Shown in pieces: positions 13,024 through 28,648 of a DNA stretch of 64,000 nucleotides. Location of the stretch: assembly GCA_022822085.1 (NCBI GenBank), contig JAJECK010000153.1:1-64000 (forward strand). The letters are read 5' to 3'. The position numbers and the translations under genes are program-made. A model generated the notes under the pieces. That model made no database searches and was not told where the DNA came from. It saw only the letters and a program-made list of their open reading frames with translations. The DNA is from Candidatus Poribacteria bacterium. GTDB taxonomy: Bacteria > Poribacteria > WGA-4E > WGA-3G. Position 1 is the first letter of the stretch. Every line of letters begins with the position of its first letter.

Positions 13024-16000
13024 ATGTCAAGTAGAGTATACATCACATTTGTTACATGTCTCTTGTTTCTTGTAATTACATTCATATTTCCCTCAGTTTT
13101 CACCTTTGCCCAACAAACGGTTGACGATGAAAACATCATTGCACGTTACAAACAGATACTACTACAAAAACCAAAAGAAGGAAGCACGTTTGATCGTCTC
13201 TATCATTTCTATCTTGAAGGAGCGGGTTTAGATGTAATGCTCCGCGATTATCAGGGTGATGCAGAAGCAAATCCGAACGATCCAAATTTACAACTCATCT
13301 TAGGGCATCTATACAAACGCCTTGGAAAAGATGCAGAAGCAATCACATCATATCAACGGGCAGTTGAACTTGCTCCCAACAACTACTACACACACTTCGC
13401 TTTAGGTCAGTTGTACAAGACAACCCGTAAACATGAAGATGCAGTGAAAGCATTAGGTAAGGCAGCCAAATTATCAGAACTATCACAAAATGTACCACCA
13501 GATGAACTAATTTCAATATATCGGGCACTCGGACACGCTTATTTCCACCGAGACAATGTGGATAAAGCAATATTGGCATGGCAAAAGATAGCAGAACTCG
13601 ACCCACAGGACATCTTTGCACGCGTTGAACTTGCAGACCTGTTCCGTGAACAAGAACTATACGATCAAGCTATCACACAACATGAGGAAATCATTAATTT
13701 CAAAAAAGACGACCCATATAGAGTCTGTTTAAGTCACCGAGAAATTGGTAATCTCCTGGAAGAAAAAGGTGAAATACAAGATGCTATCAAAAGATTTGAT
13801 ACGGCACTGGAATTGACCGCACAAGGCAACTGGTTACGTAAAGACATACAACATCGCATCATCGGTATTTTCGCAGCGGAAAGCGATTGGAAGGGATTAA
13901 TCAAGTATTACCAAGAAAAACTGGAAAAAACCCCCAATGATACTGAATTATTAGGTTTGTTGGCTGCTGCATACATTGAAAATCAACAAGTTGATGAAGG
14001 AATCAACACATATCGTAAAGGTATAGAACTTGCACCAACAAATGCCGACTTACGAATGAATATAATCGCATCTTTTCGCAACGATGAAAAGTTCGCTGAG
14101 GCTGCTGCTGAGTATGAAATCCTCAGCAAACAAAACCCTAAAGATATCGGTATTTATAGAGAACTTGGTGAATTGTATCATCAACTTGGAAATCGTGAGA
14201 AGGCGAAACAGGTTTATCAGCGAATGATTGACCACTCACCTGACAATCCAAGTACACACCTGATATTAGCTGAAATATATACCGGACACGATTGGATTGA
14301 TGAGGCAATTACACAATATGAAAAGGCTATATCACTTGTCCCCAATAATCTGGATTACGTTGAATATTTTGGTGATTTCTTTCTACGTCAAGGAAATCGC
14401 GAGAAAGCACTTGAAACTTGGAACAGAATGGTTGCTGACGAAAAAGCAATTGCCGTCAACTATGATCGTCTTGCACAGTTGCTCAAAACGAAAAAGTTTA
14501 AAGATGAAGCAATCTCTGCTATACGAAAAGCAGTTGAGTTGTTACCAGAGGATTACCGCTATAGAGAAACATTGGGAAAATATCTCATGGAAAATGGAGA
14601 GTTTGACCAAGCTATCACCGAGTATACCTCAGCGATGAACCTTGCTCCCAACGATTTTTTTGCGGATAAGATGAACGATAAAGTGATTGAATTATATCGC
14701 AGACAAGCAACACTTACTGATGAGATTACAGCATTGGAAACAGAACTTGACAAGACTTCGCTATCTGAAACTGATCGATTCACACACCTTAAGCAGCTTA
14801 CAAAAATGTATCTGAAAATGGGAAATGTAAGCTACGCTATGGAAGTTTTGTTGAAAGCAAAACAGATACTACCAAATGATGTAACCATCAACCGTTGGCT
14901 CGCTGATATCTATTACCGTCAAGGTAGACTCGACAGTGCAAATGCTACCTATCAACACCTGATTTCAATAGATAGTGCAAATGCACGCGAATATCATACA
15001 AAAATCGCAAAATCCTATCTGAATGTTCTGGATTTTCAGTCTGCTATTGATACTGCAAAACAGGTTATTGCAAATAGTCCTCGTAATCCTGATGGACATC
15101 AACTCCTCGCACAAATTGCTGTCCAAACTGAAAAGTATGATTCCGCAATTGATAGTCTAAAGAATGCAATTCGATTACGACCAGAAGACATCAAAACACG
15201 ATCTGAATTGGCAAAGGTATACTTACTCGCTGAAAAACCACAACACGCTATCGCTCAATACTGGCGATGTTGGAATATTAGTGATAATATCAATGACAAA
15301 TTATCTCTGATTAAACCCCTATCAGTAATATATGAAGACCTTGGTAAACCTGATGAATTTGTCGCACAACTTAAGAAATTGGCAAAATCAAATACTTCTT
15401 GGGTTGCAGCTATTCTGGCATTATCAGAACTCCAACGGATGAAGGGGGATCTTACAAATGCACGATTCCAATTGGCGCAAGCTTTGAATAAGCAACGTGA
15501 AAATCCGCCAATACTATATCATTTAGTCCAAATTTGCTTAGAACAAGATGATATTAAGGAAGCACTCACATATCAACAGCAACTTGTAAAAGTTCAACCC
15601 AATTCAGAAAACCTACAGAAACTTGGAGAATTACTATTCAATGTCGGACGAGAACAGGAAGCAATTCAGGTTTGGACTAAATTGCTACATGCAAAAAACC
15701 AGACGCTTGAAGCAGAAGTAAAACTCGCCGCACTCTTACTACGCAACGGGCTCCAAGATGAAGCATTTATCGTTTTGGAACGCGCAGCTGAGAAAATAAC
15801 AGGAACTGATGCACACCTACCACTTTATCAACTTGGGTCAATGTTAGTGACTATCAACGAACCCGAACGCGCAATCCCTTATTTTCACGGTATCCTTGAA
15901 ATGTCTGGTCCATCAGATAATATCACAGAAATTGATACTTCTCAAACGAAATTGAACACAATGAAAATTAATCGTGGTTATTTCACCGTTTCAAGGAGAA

Positions 16001-19000
16001 CAATCTCTGATATTCAGAGAAAACGGATGTCTGGCAGCACCAGCAGAACCAGGTGGAGACCCAAATCTATAGAGGATGCAAAAGTTGGTGCTTTGGTACA
16101 TTTAACAACAATTGCACAACAACAAGGTAGACTCAATGAACTCGTTCAACAATTGCAAGAAGTTGCGGATGAAAATCCTAATGATGTCAATGCCCATGAA
16201 ACCTTAGCAAGATTATATAATCTTATCCAACATCATGAAAAAGCAGACAAAGTCATTGAAAAGTTGGTTGATATTACCCAAAACGATTCTACATACCTAC
16301 CCTTACGCATACAAAGTATTTTGGATGAAAACCTGAGCCCTGAACAGTTCAAGAAAACTATAGATGCATTGCCTACAATTACATCTGAAGAACGGCTGCA
16401 ATATATCGCCGAATATGCAGAATCTCTATATCGTAAGGGTGATGAAGATGAAGCAATTAAACTTTTAAGTGAGATGGAAGATGTAAATGTCTCTGATTAT
16501 GATGCCATTTATGCACTTTTTTCTGCTTTCATTGTCGCAGATAAAATAGATATGGCAAAGAAATATTTAGTTAATCTTTCATTACCTCAACCTTCCAAAT
16601 ATTATGATTATAGTTATCAATTTGAAGATCTTATAAAAATATATTTGGGAAAAGATCAATTGGAAGATGCAATTGACCTAACTTTGGTTTTCTTAAAAAA
16701 AACCAAACCAATATCTGTAAACACAAGTCGTGTATCCGCTCTCAAACCCTCATCTTCTTCAAGTGGGTCCAGTTCAATCCAGACCAGTTTTCCCCCATTT
16801 TCAGCATATTACGATGAAGAACGATTGAACTTTCTAAAAGAAGTATTTGGTGAATTATGGATTGGGGGGCATACAGAATTCTTCTATACGGAATTGAAAG
16901 AATTGAAAAATGCTGCTAAGGAACAAGATCGAATCTATCCGAGTTTAGCATTAGCTTACTGTTATTGGTGGACCAGAAAACATGAAGATGCCATAAACAT
17001 AATTAACACATTGCAAAATGAATTTCCTGATGACCTGAATATCAAACACAATGCTGCACTTCTCTATATTCACACAAACAATATCAATAAAGCATTGAAC
17101 ATAGTTGAAGAATTGGCACAGGTTGATACAAAAAATAAAATTAAACATTATGATTTAATGGCGCAACTTGCTACACGCGCGGGTGAAACCGAAACCTTGA
17201 ATAAGCTGATACCAAAAGTGTTGAGTTCTCAATTTAAAGCTGAAGATCTATTGCAGCTTTCTTATACATTACAGGAAGGTGGTTATTATCAGTATGCAAT
17301 AGCAATTGCACAAAAAGCCAAGTCTTTAGTCATGACGCAACGAAATACACATTTGCTTGAGGATATAGCTTACCAACTGGCATCACTTGGTAGAGGACAA
17401 GAAGCAGCTCAACTTAAAAAACGTGCATTCCAATTCTCAAAAACTGCCACCAGTAGTCAACGCACAAGATCTACACGAAATATCAGTCAAGCTGCAAATC
17501 CAAATCGAACTTCACAAGATAATGAGAATATTGAAAGAAAATTGGTTGAAGATGCCAAAAACAAGCCAAATTCATTTCATGCACAACTAAAATTAGCGGA
17601 GCACTATGAACGCATAAATCAAATAGAAAAGGCAACGAAAGCCTATAAAGATGCACTCGCACTACGACCAAAGGATAATTCAACCAGACTACAATACATT
17701 AGGATGTTGGAAAATAACGGTCAAGCAATTGATGCTATTCCAGATTATACAATCCTACTAAAGAGTGACTCAAATGCCTTGGACTATGAACATGATAAAG
17801 CAATAGATGCATTTGTTGAAGCCGGAAAATTGGATGAACTCATCTCCATCACAAATGCTATCATCATGCCTGTTGGACAATATGCAGGTAGCGATTTCTC
17901 TGTAATTGTCGCACGAAGATGTCTCACTGAAAATAGAACTGAAGATGCTATCAAGTTATTTGAGAAGGTTATTCAAACACATCCCAGTTGGACATCACTC
18001 CACCAAGAACTTGCCTCAATGTATGTTAAAGTCGGAGAAACAGAAAAAGCAGTACAGTTTCTTATAGATAAACAAAAAAATGAAAGGTCATCTATATCGG
18101 ATACAGGATTGATAATAAAAATTGCTGAAATATATGATTTATCAGACCAATATGATAAGGCAGTCCAATATTTAAAAGAAAAAATAAATGCACAAGAACA
18201 ATTACAATCTACTATTCCTCTTGTTCTAAAACTTGCTGATATTTACATGAAAAATGAAGAATTACAAAAACTAATTACTGAATATGAAACAAAACATGCA
18301 GAAGACCCTACTGATACAAACCTTCTCTATCTCTTAACTTCTATGAAGTTAAAAACAGATGATAAAGAGGGAATTAAAGTTCTTGTGGATAAAGTAATTG
18401 ATAATGTTAAAACATCATTTTCCACTGAATGGTTATATGAGTTGTCTGATGCTTGTAGAGATAATGATTTACAAGATCTGCAGTTCCGTCTCCTTTATGC
18501 TACCGCTGAAAAATTAGAACACAATAATTCCTGGCAACTTGAAAAGTGCTATCAAAAACTTGCTGAAGAATATGTAAAAATCGGTGAAATTGAAAAATCC
18601 CAAAACGCAATGCGGAAGATGGGCAAAGTTAAGAAAAACTCAAGTGGATGGGGTAGGATTCTTGATAAAAGAAAACTTGTGACCGCATATATGCAATATC
18701 AGATGTGGGACGAAGCACTGAAACTCAATTCAGAAATAATTAACAGTCTTGATGCATCATATTGGGAACGCAATAGAGCACAAGAAAAGTATATTGAAAT
18801 AAAACAGAGACGTGGAGATTTAGACACGGATTTTGATAAAAAAATACAACTCATGAGTTTAGATATGCAACGTGCTTATGCACAGGAATTTGAATATGAT
18901 GATCAATTTGATAAGGCAATCCAAATTTATGATCACATCATCAAAACAGTCCCTGAAGATTATGAGTCACATGCTAATCTTGCACAACTCTATACACTTA

Positions 19001-22000
19001 TAGGTCAACACGAGAAATCCCATCAAATTTGGACAAAGCTCCTTAAAATTGATCCAGATAACACTAATTTCCAGGATGGGATTGTCAATAGTCTACAGTC
19101 TGCTGATAAACTCAACGATGCTTATGCACTGGCACAAGAATATGTTCAAGAAGATCCAGAGTTAGGTGTGCACTACCTTAGACTCGCAAAATTATATGCA
19201 GATGATAATAAAATTGATGATGCTATTATCAACTATAAAAAATCAGATGAACTCGCACCCGGCAACAGGAATACATACCTTTCTTTAGCAGATTTGTATC
19301 TGCGTACAGATAATTTTGTAGATGCAGAAAATGCCTTCAACAATGCACTTCAACTCACAACTTCAAGTTACCAAAGAGAAAATATAGAAGAACAGATACT
19401 AAACCTATACCGTTATCAAGGAAAAATAGAAGACAAGTTTCAGGACTCAGAAGCAAAAGGCACACTCACATCGGATATGCAAGCACAACGAGCACGTCAT
19501 TATCTGAATATAGGTGACCAAGAAAAATCTGTGAACGCCTTTAAGAAAGCTATAAACATGACATCTGATCAGTATGAAAAGGATAGGTTGACAAATGAAT
19601 TACTTGGGGCTTATGTCGAACATGACCAAACCGAATTAGCTATTGACCTTTATGAAAAAATTGCAAACCGTGCTGATACAAGGAGAAGGATTAGCTACGG
19701 AACAACAAGCATCACTGTCACTTCAAATGCAAAACGGGCCCGAGACACTTTCATTCGTATATACAAAAATCAGAATAAACTTGAGCGACTCAAAGCAATA
19801 TTTGAAGAAAAGTTGAAGAAAAGTCCGAACAATGTAGCATTTCTTGAAACTTTCGCAAGTATTCAATGGGAAAGTGAAGATTACAAAAAAGCTGCTGAAG
19901 TCTATCAAACACTTTACAATGTTCAACCTAACAATATTCTGAGTTATTACTACGCTGCTGCAGCCACACACAAAAGTGGTCATCCAGTGAAAGCAGAAAA
20001 AATCCTTAATGATGCTGAACAAGCCTTCGCATCAAGTCCGGAAAAAGACGATATGTGGATGGTCGGGCAGATTGCTTCCATCTGCCTACAGAATGGCATG
20101 ACAGATGTAGCATATAAACACGCAAAAACTGCACTTGAAATGAGCCGTGGTTATAGCAGCACAATTCAAGAAACGCTGTGGGGAATGCTTGGAGAAATAT
20201 ATAAGAACAAAAAACAGTATGAAGACGCTGTCAATATGTACCGGCAGATAGCAATAACAACCGATTATGACTATGATCGAAGAAATGCCGAAAGCGAAAT
20301 ACGTGAAATCACATTAGAAGGTAAGCTATATGAAAAATGGATCCCTAAACAACTTGAAACCGTCAAAAATCAACCGGATAATATTAACGCACGCTTACAA
20401 CTCGCTGAGAATTATGAACTTGCAAAAAAGCACAAACAAGCGGTTGAGCAGTATGAAGCAATACGTGAACTTCAACCTAACAATCCAAAATGGTATAAGA
20501 AACTTGCTGATCTTTATAACAATCTTCCAGATGATAGACAGGAAACAGGTGAGGTGATAGAAGGAACTGCACTTTCACTCGATGGAAATGGAAGCTATGT
20601 TGATATTAATGACAGTGAGATGCTAAACAACTTAACTGATCAAGTCACTGTATCAACCTGGTTCAAATGCACAGAATATCCAAAGGCTTATTCTCCTATA
20701 ATATCAAAAACTGATACCTGGTTTACTGAGTTCAGAAGTAGAACCTTTTTCGTAAATCTTAAGTATGACGGCACAGTAGAGTTTGCAGCATCTCCTAATG
20801 GTGAAGGCCATGTAAGTCTTTTTCCATCAAATTATGTAGTCCGTCCTAACACATGGATACACATCGCAGGTGTTGTTGATACAAAAAATGACACCATAAA
20901 ACTAATTGTTGATGGGAACGAGATTGCAGAGTCTGGATTTAAAGGTGTAAATGAAATATTTACCAGCAAAATCCCACTACGTATCGGTTGGACACATGAG
21001 GAAATGTCGCTATATAACCATGTCAACGGATTCATTGATGAGGTCCGAGTATGGAATATTGCAAGAACTACAGATGACATACGTGCAGATATGAACAAAC
21101 AACTCAACGGAGATGAACCCGGTTTAGTCGGATACTGGAAATTTGATACGCAACAAGACGGTAAGATATTTGATTCCTCACCGAACAAAATCCATGGCAC
21201 ACTTATAGGTAATGCTAAACTGGAGAAATACACGCGTCCAATTTATAAAAGCACTCGACATGATAATCTGGCAAAATCAAAAGCTTATTATGAAAAGACG
21301 TTAAAACTTGAAAACGCATCATATCAAAACTACGACCAACTGGCAAAACTTCACTTAAAAGTAAACAACAAAGCAGATGCTGAAGCAGTATATCTCAGAG
21401 CGTTGGAAGCACCACTCACGCAATCCAATTACGAATCTGCAGTTAAAGCTGTATCAGAACTATATGCTGATGAAGGACAGGAACAGGCACTCCTCGCAAT
21501 CCTTGAACAGATAAAGCATAAATTGCCGAGAAGTGCTGAGTTTCACGATCAATTGGTAAATTTATACAAGAAAACTGGAGATATTGAAAAGTCTGATGAG
21601 GCACTTGCAAAATGGGTGAAGATACGACAGAATTATGTTAACAAAAGGCAATCTGCTTCATACTACCGTACATTTGCAGAACAATTGCTTGATAAAGAAA
21701 TATTTCCTGAGATAGCACTTATGAATGCAAAACTTGCAGTTCATAACTACACAGGGACAAGTTATACAAATACAACTGTACTTGGTGAGGCGTGTGTCGC
21801 AAACGGTCAAGTTGATGAAGCACTCAGACACTTCAAGCAGGCATTAAGCTATATTTCATCCAACTACGGTTATGATTGGTTTTGGGAAAAAGTCGCTGCG
21901 GCAATCAAGAAAGTTGAGAATAAGGAGGTTTTTATCCAGAGACTTGATGAGTTGATTCATACCATTCCATCTACCAGTTGGGCAAGTCGTGCAAATGCAT

Positions 22001-23202
22001 ATCGATACATCGCACAATTTCTCAATAAGAATGACACTCGTGAAAACATAGAAAACTATATTATTACTAAGGTTGGCTTCGTTCCTGAATCGCGGTGGAT
22101 TACATTGGGACCATTCAAAAACATTGATACGATGGGAACACTCTATGCATATATACCTGAAGAGACAACTCAAATCGACCCAACTGCAAAATATAATGGA
22201 AGAGATGGATTAATCAGTTGGAAGAAATCTAAATATCGTCTATTGGATGGACATTACAATTTTGTCCCAGAAAACGATGATTGGAGTGCAGCGTATGTCT
22301 GGACTATTGTTAACTCTCCGAAGGATCAGGATATTGTTCTACGGTTTGATAGTGATGACCAAGGTTTGGTCTGGTTAAACGGAAAAGAAGTCTTTCGTCA
22401 TTATAGAACAAGCGGTGTTAGAATTGATCGCTATACAATTCCTGTCACATTGAAGCAGGGAGAAAACACTATCTTACTCAAGATAAGTAATGCAAGCCAG
22501 TCTTGGGATTTCTATTTACGCCTTACTGATGAAGATGGGAATCCGATCCAAGGGTTAACATACCAAACCCAAGACGAATTACTCAGTGCACCTCCACCAG
22601 CACCGACCTACCATGTGAATCTTCATCTTGGTATGGCTGATTACTATTACAAAAACAACATGCCTGAAAAAGCAATGGAAGAAATGAAGCAGACTGGAAC
22701 AATTCACGAATATTCATGGCATATACTCGGACCATTTGATAATAAAAACAATGTTGGATATGATACTGCTTACATACCAGATGATATAACAGAGATTGAC
22801 TTTGACGCAAAATATGAAGGAGTCAATGGTGACGTTAAGTGGACTCGGCATACTGATGACTTTTTCGACGGATATGTAGACTTAGGTAGAAATGTGAATT
22901 CATCTATCTCTTATGCTTGGGTTACCGTCAACTCCCCGGATGAACGTGAAGTCCAATTCCGATTCGGATGTGATGACTTAGGCAAAGTCTGGTTAAATGG
23001 AACAGAGGTGTTAACAAAGGATCATTATAGTTGGGCAATTGTAGATGATATGGTGACTCATGTGAAATTGAAACAAGGAAAAAATACTATTCTTGTCAAA
23101 GTTGGAAACGCAGAAGGAAGTTGGGGTTTCTTTTTCAGGATAACAGACTTTGATGGTAAACCATTCCCTGACCTGAATATCAGCGATTTGCCAGACAATT
23201 AA
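13024..23202 (+). CDS. Giant secreted TPR protein with embedded LamG and two C-terminal beta domains
   Basis: A 3392-residue protein. A signal peptide (hydrophobic residues about 8-29, ending FTFAQQ) directs export. Residues about 60-2500 are nearly continuous tetratricopeptide repeats (34-residue units with 'A...Y..A..L.P.N' signatures). Clear examples include 'LGKDAEAITSYQRAVELAPN'. A LamG/concanavalin-type domain (about 2513-2739, from GTALSLDGNGSYVDI to about GYWKFD and beyond) interrupts them, and further TPRs follow. Two related beta-rich domains end the protein (about 3021-3176 and 3226-3379), each with a 'LGPF', 'VNSP' and 'D..G.VWLNG.EV' pattern that resembles carbohydrate-binding or PA14-like modules. 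Its probable role is a large extracytoplasmic scaffold, perhaps for glycan binding. ATG 13024 has ggagat nearby. No frameshift is seen over 10 kb. Confidence 0.85.
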   Translation: MSSRVYITFVTCLLFLVITFIFPSVFTFAQQTVDDENIIARYKQILLQKPKEGSTFDRLYHFYLEGAGLDVMLRDYQGDAEANPNDPNLQLILGHLYKRLGKDAEAITSYQRAVELAPNNYYTHFALGQLYKTTRKHEDAVKALGKAAKLSELSQNVPPDELISIYRALGHAYFHRDNVDKAILAWQKIAELDPQDIFARVELADLFREQELYDQAITQHEEIINFKKDDPYRVCLSHREIGNLLEEKGEIQDAIKRFDTALELTAQGNWLRKDIQHRIIGIFAAESDWKGLIKYYQEKLEKTPNDTELLGLLAAAYIENQQVDEGINTYRKGIELAPTNADLRMNIIASFRNDEKFAEAAAEYEILSKQNPKDIGIYRELGELYHQLGNREKAKQVYQRMIDHSPDNPSTHLILAEIYTGHDWIDEAITQYEKAISLVPNNLDYVEYFGDFFLRQGNREKALETWNRMVADEKAIAVNYDRLAQLLKTKKFKDEAISAIRKAVELLPEDYRYRETLGKYLMENGEFDQAITEYTSAMNLAPNDFFADKMNDKVIELYRRQATLTDEITALETELDKTSLSETDRFTHLKQLTKMYLKMGNVSYAMEVLLKAKQILPNDVTINRWLADIYYRQGRLDSANATYQHLISIDSANAREYHTKIAKSYLNVLDFQSAIDTAKQVIANSPRNPDGHQLLAQIAVQTEKYDSAIDSLKNAIRLRPEDIKTRSELAKVYLLAEKPQHAIAQYWRCWNISDNINDKLSLIKPLSVIYEDLGKPDEFVAQLKKLAKSNTSWVAAILALSELQRMKGDLTNARFQLAQALNKQRENPPILYHLVQICLEQDDIKEALTYQQQLVKVQPNSENLQKLGELLFNVGREQEAIQVWTKLLHAKNQTLEAEVKLAALLLRNGLQDEAFIVLERAAEKITGTDAHLPLYQLGSMLVTINEPERAIPYFHGILEMSGPSDNITEIDTSQTKLNTMKINRGYFTVSRRTISDIQRKRMSGSTSRTRWRPKSIEDAKVGALVHLTTIAQQQGRLNELVQQLQEVADENPNDVNAHETLARLYNLIQHHEKADKVIEKLVDITQNDSTYLPLRIQSILDENLSPEQFKKTIDALPTITSEERLQYIAEYAESLYRKGDEDEAIKLLSEMEDVNVSDYDAIYALFSAFIVADKIDMAKKYLVNLSLPQPSKYYDYSYQFEDLIKIYLGKDQLEDAIDLTLVFLKKTKPISVNTSRVSALKPSSSSSGSSSIQTSFPPFSAYYDEERLNFLKEVFGELWIGGHTEFFYTELKELKNAAKEQDRIYPSLALAYCYWWTRKHEDAINIINTLQNEFPDDLNIKHNAALLYIHTNNINKALNIVEELAQVDTKNKIKHYDLMAQLATRAGETETLNKLIPKVLSSQFKAEDLLQLSYTLQEGGYYQYAIAIAQKAKSLVMTQRNTHLLEDIAYQLASLGRGQEAAQLKKRAFQFSKTATSSQRTRSTRNISQAANPNRTSQDNENIERKLVEDAKNKPNSFHAQLKLAEHYERINQIEKATKAYKDALALRPKDNSTRLQYIRMLENNGQAIDAIPDYTILLKSDSNALDYEHDKAIDAFVEAGKLDELISITNAIIMPVGQYAGSDFSVIVARRCLTENRTEDAIKLFEKVIQTHPSWTSLHQELASMYVKVGETEKAVQFLIDKQKNERSSISDTGLIIKIAEIYDLSDQYDKAVQYLKEKINAQEQLQSTIPLVLKLADIYMKNEELQKLITEYETKHAEDPTDTNLLYLLTSMKLKTDDKEGIKVLVDKVIDNVKTSFSTEWLYELSDACRDNDLQDLQFRLLYATAEKLEHNNSWQLEKCYQKLAEEYVKIGEIEKSQNAMRKMGKVKKNSSGWGRILDKRKLVTAYMQYQMWDEALKLNSEIINSLDASYWERNRAQEKYIEIKQRRGDLDTDFDKKIQLMSLDMQRAYAQEFEYDDQFDKAIQIYDHIIKTVPEDYESHANLAQLYTLIGQHEKSHQIWTKLLKIDPDNTNFQDGIVNSLQSADKLNDAYALAQEYVQEDPELGVHYLRLAKLYADDNKIDDAIINYKKSDELAPGNRNTYLSLADLYLRTDNFVDAENAFNNALQLTTSSYQRENIEEQILNLYRYQGKIEDKFQDSEAKGTLTSDMQAQRARHYLNIGDQEKSVNAFKKAINMTSDQYEKDRLTNELLGAYVEHDQTELAIDLYEKIANRADTRRRISYGTTSITVTSNAKRARDTFIRIYKNQNKLERLKAIFEEKLKKSPNNVAFLETFASIQWESEDYKKAAEVYQTLYNVQPNNILSYYYAAAATHKSGHPVKAEKILNDAEQAFASSPEKDDMWMVGQIASICLQNGMTDVAYKHAKTALEMSRGYSSTIQETLWGMLGEIYKNKKQYEDAVNMYRQIAITTDYDYDRRNAESEIREITLEGKLYEKWIPKQLETVKNQPDNINARLQLAENYELAKKHKQAVEQYEAIRELQPNNPKWYKKLADLYNNLPDDRQETGEVIEGTALSLDGNGSYVDINDSEMLNNLTDQVTVSTWFKCTEYPKAYSPIISKTDTWFTEFRSRTFFVNLKYDGTVEFAASPNGEGHVSLFPSNYVVRPNTWIHIAGVVDTKNDTIKLIVDGNEIAESGFKGVNEIFTSKIPLRIGWTHEEMSLYNHVNGFIDEVRVWNIARTTDDIRADMNKQLNGDEPGLVGYWKFDTQQDGKIFDSSPNKIHGTLIGNAKLEKYTRPIYKSTRHDNLAKSKAYYEKTLKLENASYQNYDQLAKLHLKVNNKADAEAVYLRALEAPLTQSNYESAVKAVSELYADEGQEQALLAILEQIKHKLPRSAEFHDQLVNLYKKTGDIEKSDEALAKWVKIRQNYVNKRQSASYYRTFAEQLLDKEIFPEIALMNAKLAVHNYTGTSYTNTTVLGEACVANGQVDEALRHFKQALSYISSNYGYDWFWEKVAAAIKKVENKEVFIQRLDELIHTIPSTSWASRANAYRYIAQFLNKNDTRENIENYIITKVGFVPESRWITLGPFKNIDTMGTLYAYIPEETTQIDPTAKYNGRDGLISWKKSKYRLLDGHYNFVPENDDWSAAYVWTIVNSPKDQDIVLRFDSDDQGLVWLNGKEVFRHYRTSGVRIDRYTIPVTLKQGENTILLKISNASQSWDFYLRLTDEDGNPIQGLTYQTQDELLSAPPPAPTYHVNLHLGMADYYYKNNMPEKAMEEMKQTGTIHEYSWHILGPFDNKNNVGYDTAYIPDDITEIDFDAKYEGVNGDVKWTRHTDDFFDGYVDLGRNVNSSISYAWVTVNSPDEREVQFRFGCDDLGKVWLNGTEVLTKDHYSWAIVDDMVTHVKLKQGKNTILVKVGNAEGSWGFFFRITDFDGKPFPDLNISDLPDN

Positions 23203-26614: not shown

Positions 26615-28648
26615 ATGAACACCAATGATTACCCAAATCGAGATGCCCTACGTCATGCAAATGATATCTATTTAGATGTTATGAGATCATTCATCATCCA
26701 TAATTTAAAGCAAGTCAAAGGGGAAAATGTCGAACAATTGATAGAAAAAGTATTGTATGATAATCAAATAGAACAGTTTCGTCAAATGATTAAGGAACAT
26801 AACGATATAGGTTCTGCGATAGACTTCACCTATATTCCTCATATCATCAAGGACTATTGGGAGGATATTTTTTCAAATAAATTTGAAAATGATTTAGTTG
26901 CACAAAATATGTTATGGCTTATAAGGAAAGGTAGAAATAAATGTGAACACAGAGCAACAAAAGACTTGGACATTGAGTTTACACGGACACATCTTTATCT
27001 AATCTCTGATATACTAAGAATTATAAATAGAACTGATAAAATGAGTGAAGTTAATAGAATACGTGATGAATTCTTAGCAGATAATGCTGCAACGCAGATT
27101 TCAGAAATAACAGAGCAATTAGAGATAGAAAAAACTGAAAAGAAAAAACATAAAAAGGATTATGAAAAAGTTGCAAAGCAGCTTGAGGATTTAGAGATTC
27201 AGTGTAATACAGATAAGGAACACTTGAATGAAGTTAAAAAGCAACTATCAGAAGCAAAATCCGATAAGGAGAAGGCTGATGAAAATCTGATAAATATCAG
27301 GAAAGACTTAAAAGCAACTAAAGATGACTTAAAAACAGCTGAAGAGGCGCGGATTGAGGCTGATAAAAGTTTAAAAAGCAATATGGCTGAACTCCAAACG
27401 GTTGAAAATGAGAAGAATAGTATTGTAGAAAAATATGAAACTCTGCAAAAACAGTATGAAGATGTGGAAAAAGAAAACAGGGAGAACCTTACATCCATAG
27501 AGAATCAACTATTGGTTGCAAAGACTGAGAAAAGTTGTGCCGAGGAACGCATTGCAACATTGGTTAATCCAGTCTTTCCTCCTCTTGACAGTGATTCGGA
27601 TGTTTATATTCTTGATCGACGAGGAACAGATAGAAAGAAATACATAATAAATCTACTTGAAACTAAAAAACCATCTATTATCTATGTTCATGACAGCGAT
27701 AAAATCAAACAGTTATTATCTTTTGTTGGTGATGAAACAGCTGCATCTATTGGGATACATAACAATCGGACATCTGCTGATGAAGAAAAAGAGTTGCTAA
27801 CAAAGCTTGAGCATGACGAAATAAATACGATAGTCTCAGATACAACTATTACTTCATTACCAGAACAACATACTGTTGAACACTTTATAATATGTCATCC
27901 TGTCTTGTGTTTAGATGAATTCACCAAACGATGTGAACCTGCTTTCAACTCAAATAAAGACGCTTACATCCATTTTATATATGATAGGACCCAGGATTTT
28001 CAAGATATCGTTGAAGAATTAAATCATAAGTATTTGGACCGTGAGGTATTAATTGACTTGTATAAAGGAACAGAGACATTTGTTACAGCAAATAATGGTG
28101 TCGTTGATATTGACAGTTTGCACGATGACTTGGATTTAGAAAAATCAGGAATAGCAACTGGGCTGGCTATTTTTGAGGAACTCGGGTTTATTGAGAGAAA
28201 TGCTGCAAAAATCAAATTCTTAAAATCCAATAACAAGAGGAAATTAGAGGACTCGTATCTATATTGTGAAGGTAAAAAGCTGAAAGAAAAAGTAAATCGT
28301 GAATCCTATCAACTTGGTATGGACTCCATTGAAAACCTTTGGAGCAAAATACTTGATACTTTAGATATTGAGGAAAAGCATATAATTCATGAACAACCAG
28401 AAAGGACATATAAAACGAATAACAGTTCTCAACACGAAACAGAAGTTGATGAGACTGATAGTACCGATACAGAACAAGTTGACACGCCAAAGCATTCACG
28501 AGCAAAAGTTAATGCAGAACAAGTCAGAGATATTCGGGAACGCGCTGCAGATGGCGAAACATTATCTAACCTTTCAAAAGAATATGGGATGTCATCTACT
28601 GGAATTTGGAATATCGTAAATAGAAATACCTGGAAAGATGTTGAGTAA
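26615..28648 (+). CDS. HEPN / coiled-coil / RecJ_C-like / HTH multidomain protein, possible defence gene
   Basis: A 677-residue protein with an unusual architecture. The N-terminus (about 1-145) resembles a Swt1-type HEPN domain. Its RNKCEH motif (Arg107, His112) is the R-x4-H signature of HEPN ribonucleases. A long coiled coil (about 155-320, Lys/Glu-rich heptads) follows. Residues about 326-562 resemble the C-terminal domain of RecJ exonucleases, notably ATGLAIFEELGFIERN and the preceding DREVLIDLYKG. The C-terminus (about 630-677) is a helix-turn-helix like those after HNH nucleases (LSNLSKEYGMSSTGIWNIV, ending NTWKDV). A nucleic-acid-sensing ribonuclease role is inference. It is 81 bases downstream of the methyltransferase and convergent with the efflux adaptor. 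Confidence 0.55.
   Translation: MNTNDYPNRDALRHANDIYLDVMRSFIIHNLKQVKGENVEQLIEKVLYDNQIEQFRQMIKEHNDIGSAIDFTYIPHIIKDYWEDIFSNKFENDLVAQNMLWLIRKGRNKCEHRATKDLDIEFTRTHLYLISDILRIINRTDKMSEVNRIRDEFLADNAATQISEITEQLEIEKTEKKKHKKDYEKVAKQLEDLEIQCNTDKEHLNEVKKQLSEAKSDKEKADENLINIRKDLKATKDDLKTAEEARIEADKSLKSNMAELQTVENEKNSIVEKYETLQKQYEDVEKENRENLTSIENQLLVAKTEKSCAEERIATLVNPVFPPLDSDSDVYILDRRGTDRKKYIINLLETKKPSIIYVHDSDKIKQLLSFVGDETAASIGIHNNRTSADEEKELLTKLEHDEINTIVSDTTITSLPEQHTVEHFIICHPVLCLDEFTKRCEPAFNSNKDAYIHFIYDRTQDFQDIVEELNHKYLDREVLIDLYKGTETFVTANNGVVDIDSLHDDLDLEKSGIATGLAIFEELGFIERNAAKIKFLKSNNKRKLEDSYLYCEGKKLKEKVNRESYQLGMDSIENLWSKILDTLDIEEKHIIHEQPERTYKTNNSSQHETEVDETDSTDTEQVDTPKHSRAKVNAEQVRDIRERAADGETLSNLSKEYGMSSTGIWNIVNRNTWKDVE

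Follow-up and report, generated by a model that had tools for sequence, protein, structure and literature searches.

A Poribacterial HEPN protein built on a RecJ-derived core: a fixed chromosomal gene with exchangeable modules

Gene and domain architecture

Poribacteria are a phylum of mostly uncultured sponge-associated bacteria. The window analysed here, a 64,000-nucleotide stretch of a Candidatus Poribacteria contig (JAJECK010000153.1, assembly GCA_022822085.1), contains a complete open reading frame (ORF) with an ATG start, flanked by a methyltransferase gene and a gene for an HlyD-type protein (Table 1). Domain boundaries were taken from an alignment of 28 full-length homologues, which are 29-49% identical, and from an AF2 model of the full-length protein. 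The model also places a disordered linker at residues 585-629, directly ahead of a helix-turn-helix (HTH) at residues 634-676. Its mean pLDDT of 77.6 and pTM of 0.41 mean that the folds of the individual domains can be used, while their arrangement relative to one another cannot.

Table 1. Features of the HEPN-RecJ fusion gene and its flanks, in window coordinates.
Feature	Coordinates	Strand	Remarks
Upstream slot flank: SAM-dependent methyltransferase, 378 aa	25397..26533	+	same strand, 81 bp upstream of the fusion gene
Complete gene, 677 aa: HEPN - coiled coil - RecJ C-terminal domain - HTH	26615..28648	+	ORF, homologues, model
Swt1-type HEPN module, residues 1-145	26615..27049	+	R107 codon 26933-26935, H112 codon 26948-26950 (R-x4-H); E121 also invariant
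Long coiled coil, residues 140-314, two helices with a break at ~215-237	27032..27556	+	AF2 model; SMC-like coiled-coil profile match
RecJ C-terminal domain, residues 318-585	27566..28369	+	helicase-C-like RecA alpha/beta fold at ~330-456 and winged helix at ~476-535 containing ATGLAIFEELGFIERN
C-terminal HTH, residues 634-677	28514..28645	+	one of several interchangeable tails
Downstream slot flank: HlyD-type secretion/efflux protein, 529 aa	28677..30266	-	convergent, 28 bp from the stop codon

Searches with the single sequence found no HEPN match in Pfam, no relative in the PDB and no relative among the genome contigs, so profiles and whole-genome searches were required. Using profile searches, the match to the host RecJ, AF2 models and Foldseek, all four domains that a preliminary description had assigned from the letters (HEPN, coiled coil, RecJ_C and HTH) were found to be correct, and the gene and its domain set are real. 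Both the long coiled coil and the HTH are present in the AF2 model; the Pfam match of the HTH is weak (Mor, 1.1e-3). PADLOC matches to the ORF fall on its coiled coil, and a scan for promoters and terminators around the gene returned sites no more numerous than in shuffled sequence. The combination of domains, which the preliminary description had not recognised, is unreported in the searchable literature: our search found no relevant paper combining HEPN and RecJ.

HEPN domain

Arg107 and His112 of the R-x4-H motif lie exactly where they had been placed at the outset, and the homologues, for which loss of this motif had been named as counter-evidence, retain both residues in 28 of 28 full-length sequences. 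In a wider alignment that includes HEPN domains from other architectures, R107, H112 and E121 are invariant (35/35 sequences), and residue 108, next to the arginine, is N or D throughout.

Membership in the Swt1-like HEPN family (PF18731) is established through relatives and through fold. PF18731 matches five homologues in Pfam (best 1.2e-5), and paralogues that carry the same HEPN module, and that fall in the same tree, pass the curated cut-off of the family (7e-9 and 3.6e-8). Searched against its own genome, PF18731 finds the window ORF at 2.6e-4, a match that fails the Pfam cut-off. A model of residues 1-150 (pLDDT 93.7) is all helical and has the motif at the end of helix 95-111, as in the HEPN superfamily, where a helical bundle carries R-x4-6-H near the end of helix 3. 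The PDB structure closest to this model is the C-terminal domain of yeast Swt1 (4pqz; probability 0.85, E 0.56, not significant alone). With PF18731 matches in relatives and 4pqz as the best fold, the HEPN fold first suggested for residues 1-145 is of the Swt1 type. The pattern of a conserved Arg followed by N or D, together with the His, is associated with active HEPN RNases (Anantharaman et al. 2013, PMC3710099). By these criteria, the invariant R107, H112 and E121 and the N or D at position 108 predict that the domain is an active RNase.

RecJ-derived core

Residues 316-585 align with the C-terminus of the RecJ encoded in the same genome (34% identity, E 2.5e-38), and PF10141 matches residues 499-555 (E 1.5e-4). 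The preliminary description had been right to see a RecJ_C-like region, but made it too small: the part it pointed to is the winged helix (ATGLAIFEELGFIERN), and the homology spans residues ~318-585. Among the homologues, 13 match Helicase_C and five match PF10141. With the full model, the top Foldseek match was S. aureus RecJ (8y30, E 1.9e-5), followed by helicase folds of the RecQ, WRN and UvrB type. A profile built from the fusions matches host RecJs at up to 5e-81, and in a tree of 49 domains, one branch with support of 100/100 separates the 28 fusions from 21 RecJs. The simplest reading of this tree is that the domain was captured from RecJ a single time.

A host RecJ of the same genus has the domain order DHH, DHHA1, RecJ_OB, Helicase_C, ssDNA-exonuc_C, of which the fusion therefore has the last two (PF10141 with a PF00271-like part) and no catalytic domain. 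With DHH, DHHA1 and OB all absent, the ORF is not a RecJ. Nor does it have the two RecA domains, Walker A motif and motif VI arginine fingers of an SF2 helicase; only the C-terminal RecA-like domain is present, with no first RecA domain, and the alignment has KRCxPAF where motif VI would be. Within the core, all 28 fusions have C427, H428, C440 and H453 (residues ~427-453, window 27893-27973), and the C, the H and the last H are also kept in aligned host RecJs. These residues may form a site in the RecJ tail that is structural or binds metal.

Chromosomal context

Among named relatives, the whole architecture was found only in Candidatus Poribacteria assemblies. In a search of the phylum, full-length matches were confined to the window's own family, and other families matched through RecJ or the HEPN module only. 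Searches of plasmids, phages and viral contigs gave no match to the fusion, on which ground a mobile-element reading was rejected.

The fusion gene occupies one fixed chromosomal slot, bounded by the methyltransferase and HlyD genes, in a conserved gene order that also includes MsrA and WD40/secreted proteins. In a tally of this slot made by hand over 59 genomes of the family, 26 have the fusion beside the methyltransferase and two have it beside HlyD at a contig break. The fusion is cut by contig ends in two genomes and decayed in two more, three contain a HEPN-coiled-coil gene that continues differently or in an undetermined way, and the rest are undetermined or carry other genes, apart from eight in which the slot is empty. 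In these eight, the methyltransferase and HlyD are adjacent, with a gap of only 13-14 bp in G003, G004 and G017. The gene has thus been subject to gain and loss within the family.

The methyltransferase is found in 56 of the 59 genomes and evolves like a core gene. In several genomes its distance to the fusion is below 15 bp or the two overlap, but it is also present in all eight genomes with an empty slot and so is not a dedicated partner. No conserved partner gene was found for the fusion among the slots examined. The preliminary description had looked to a neighbourhood rich in defence genes, and this expectation failed: the surroundings are conserved, non-defence synteny, other cargo in the slot consists mostly of WD40 and secreted proteins, and PADLOC returned one generic methyltransferase match and one WD40-type match only for the nearby window genes. 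A defence-island reading was rejected on this neighbourhood.

A small DUF6575 gene often lies after the fusion on the same strand (L053:13892-14329, L046, L050, L052), and in G040 (L065) the slot is occupied by a longer DUF6575 gene. The flanking methyltransferase of G019 (L069) appears as two separate match pieces within one ORF, and G006 (C148) has a second, broken copy of it. Elsewhere in the window, positions 13024-23202 (+) encode a secreted-looking protein of 3392 aa with TPR-like repeats and a LamG-like segment; it is among several large repeat proteins encoded in this region.

Module exchange at the slot

In this slot, HEPN modules and tails have moved between species, while the core derived from RecJ descends with the chromosome. 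When between-genome identities were compared with those of the flanking methyltransferase, rho was 0.80 for the RecJ part and 0.72 for the coiled coil as against 0.23 for the HEPN. Genomes G029 and G058, for example, share 90% identity in the methyltransferase and 76% in the RecJ part but 36% in the HEPN; the change-over between exchanged and inherited parts lies near residue 120. In AU tests, the HEPN data rejected the RecJ-part tree (p 2.5e-6), and the RecJ-part data rejected the HEPN tree (p 9e-5). At the level of fine splits, the RecJ-part tree and the methyltransferase tree agree only in part (6/24), so the claim made here is one of correlated distances and not of identical trees. Synonymous divergence of the HEPN relative to the RecJ part (NG86, partly saturated) is lower in same-type pairs and higher in one different-type pair. 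In close pairs, both segments are under purifying selection, with dN/dS of ~0.1-0.3 by a rough NG86 estimate.

The exchange reaches beyond the fusion itself: in the HEPN tree, modules of differently built proteins nest within the fusion HEPN types, and the HEPN of one such protein, encoded in another genus, shares 85% identity with the HEPN of the G030 fusion. Tails are the HTH seen in the window, an 'IREKLGL' tail, an 'FWQPIR' tail or none, and HEPN types A, B and C are combined with them in mixed fashion, also between single-contig genomes (G024 versus G042). Because single-contig genomes differ in HEPN type (A in G010, G024 and G044; B in G037 and G042), chimeric assembly is an unlikely cause of the swapping.

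The core has itself been replaced in at least two genomes, by DUF7669 or by a restriction-nuclease-like domain. In the same slot, G013 has HEPN-coiled coil-DUF7669, and G053 has a HEPN-coiled coil with an HSDR_N-like segment whose HSDR_N matches fall below the Pfam cut-off; fragments in G051 are consistent with a gene of the G053 type. The locus thereby offers a natural series: a single conserved core combined with three types of HEPN and with several tails, two cases in which the core is replaced, and empty sites among close relatives. It can be used to ask which module determines the RNA targeted and which determines the trigger.

HEPNs of the same family also head HmaC/DUF499 proteins that adjoin DUF1156 methyltransferases in Poribacteria. 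The HmaC/DUF499 system is a published defence system for which anti-phage activity has been reported and a suicidal role of its HEPN proposed (PMC12839542). Further modules fused to this HEPN include DUF4268, Mrr_N, S1 and HTH_3 domains.

Proposed function

We tentatively propose, with a confidence falling slightly short of an even chance, that the gene encodes a single-gene, conflict-type HEPN RNase that is held or triggered through a RecJ-derived adaptor. The N-terminal domain would act as a metal-independent RNA endonuclease, and the coiled coil probably pairs two HEPN domains. The core, which is copied from the C-terminal domain of the cell's own RecJ and is catalytically empty, having neither the DHH nuclease nor an ATPase half, would place the protein where RecJ acts, at resected ends and at stalled or phage-driven replication forks; alternatively, it may read the state of the RecJ machinery. 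Abnormal DNA intermediates or foreign interference would then free the HEPN, and the ensuing RNA cleavage would stop growth, perhaps to the detriment of a phage.

The architecture is new and the kind of protein, a HEPN conflict RNase, is known, while the evolutionary pattern is unusual and well supported. Judged from sequence comparisons, the HmaC/DUF499-type HEPN relatives, the other fused modules, the swapping and the gain and loss favour a conflict role over housekeeping. The defence or stress role suggested at the outset is likewise supported by module swapping at a fixed locus, by replacement of the core with other nucleic-acid domains and by the same HEPN on DUF499/HmaC proteins, but not by a defence-island context. 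Counting against it are the lack of defence genes nearby, the lack of plasmid, phage or viral-contig matches and the conserved chromosomal position, by which the fusion differs from most mobile defence genes. A host repair-protein domain joins the list of parts onto which HEPN RNases are built, and, if the conflict role holds, such genes can hide outside defence islands in fixed, ordinary-looking neighbourhoods.

One candidate contact of the RecJ tail is SSB. The C-terminal domain of Deinococcus radiodurans RecJ, likewise an extension used for protein contacts, binds SSB (through SSB-Ct) and HerA (PMC4846377, PMC4663267), and B. subtilis RecJ co-purifies with SSB (PMC3000357). The SSB of the genome studied here ends in the canonical C-terminus, DDDIPF. 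According to a review, however, the predicted S. aureus RecJ tail is without the SSB pocket of Deinococcus RecJ and is clearly different from it in sequence (PMC11442139), and a search of the PDB with the RecJ-tail profile found no Deinococcus RecJ chain. Since the S. aureus-type tail is the closest structural match to the fusion, the model of a tether to SSB-Ct is weakened, and we retain it as one doubtful possibility.

A housekeeping function in DNA repair, in which the RecJ tail recruits the HEPN nuclease to replication or recombination sites for the removal of RNA (R-loops, primers), appears rather unlikely. It would suit the fixed position, a RecJ part that is a true RecJ domain inherited with the chromosome, and the purifying selection on both segments. 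It fits poorly with a slot that lacks the gene in 8 of 59 family genomes and holds a decayed copy in two, with the restriction of the gene to one family of the phylum, and with the exchange of HEPN and tail modules between species, which is rare for housekeeping enzymes.

In a bolder form of the conflict reading, which we rate as rather improbable, the gene would be a fixed chromosomal immune gene whose RecJ tail serves as sensor or bait and whose RNase end and C-terminal reader are repeatedly exchanged between species; if true, this would be a bacterial counterpart of immune receptors into which host-protein decoys are integrated. The decoy alternative proper, that invader proteins attacking or hijacking RecJ bind the tail as bait and so free the HEPN RNase, looks quite unlikely. 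The captured part is indeed non-catalytic and copied from a host repair protein whose intact original is still present, and it tracks the host chromosome, as a bait would, but no invader protein is known to target this RecJ domain, and plain localisation accounts for the same facts.

That the HEPN is instead a non-catalytic module binding RNA or protein is very unlikely. The eukaryotic Swt1 HEPN, whose yeast representative is the closest structure, is missing the motif and has been proposed to bind RNA (PMC3710099), but here all 35 sequences, across architectures, retain the Arg, the following polar residue, the His and the Glu. Barely credible is a toxin-antitoxin pair with the upstream methyltransferase as antidote, suggested by its proximity on the same strand and rejected on co-occurrence, as the methyltransferase persists beside every empty slot with the evolution of a core gene.

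Comparison with known systems

The window protein resembles Ava_2192 (HEPN plus DUF499 ATPase) and the HmaC or Type-1 BREX-related systems in HEPN family (PF18731), retained motif and N-terminal position. It differs in being one gene at a fixed locus with a body of coiled coil and RecJ tail, and in having no AAA ATPase, N6-methyltransferase or helicase partner; the operon of DUF499 ATPase, N6-methyltransferase and helicase that marks such systems was absent among the flanking genes examined. In long-form RecJ (Firmicutes type, PF10141; S. aureus 8y30), the C-terminal domain is homologous to residues 318-585, but in place of DHH, DHHA1 and OB the window protein has the HEPN and coiled coil, and hence no exonuclease.

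With effectors of the PrrC, RloC and RNase LS type, which are established families (PMC3710099), the protein shares the superfamily motif and a predicted suicidal RNase logic, but it belongs to a different HEPN family and has no ATPase or link to a restriction system. Like polymorphic, module-swapping conflict proteins, it combines a conserved middle with an effector at the N-terminus and modules at the C-terminus that can be exchanged; unlike them, it swaps within a single stand-alone gene that is fixed in the chromosome and has a core from a repair protein, and no secretion or immunity gene was seen.

Other HEPN genes of this kind occur outside the slot. In other Poribacteria (L093, L094, L097, L102, L105, L106, L107, L111), HEPN-coiled-coil genes with other C-terminal domains share a second chromosomal setting, where many adjoin a gene of ~772-780 aa (GH129 in L097, the one tested). 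A HEPN-coiled-coil gene of G154, from another phylum, is nearly identical to one in the Poribacteria genome G047 (L095, L098), through either assembly contamination or recent transfer. The genome of the window itself has another Swt1-type HEPN at L179 (G000:C40), C-terminal on an NTPase-like protein of ~425 aa. Finally, a single ORF at L110:8457-10307 (-) combines HTH_3 and a Swt1-type HEPN with three S1 RNA-binding domains and, in this architecture, resembles an RNase that reads RNA.
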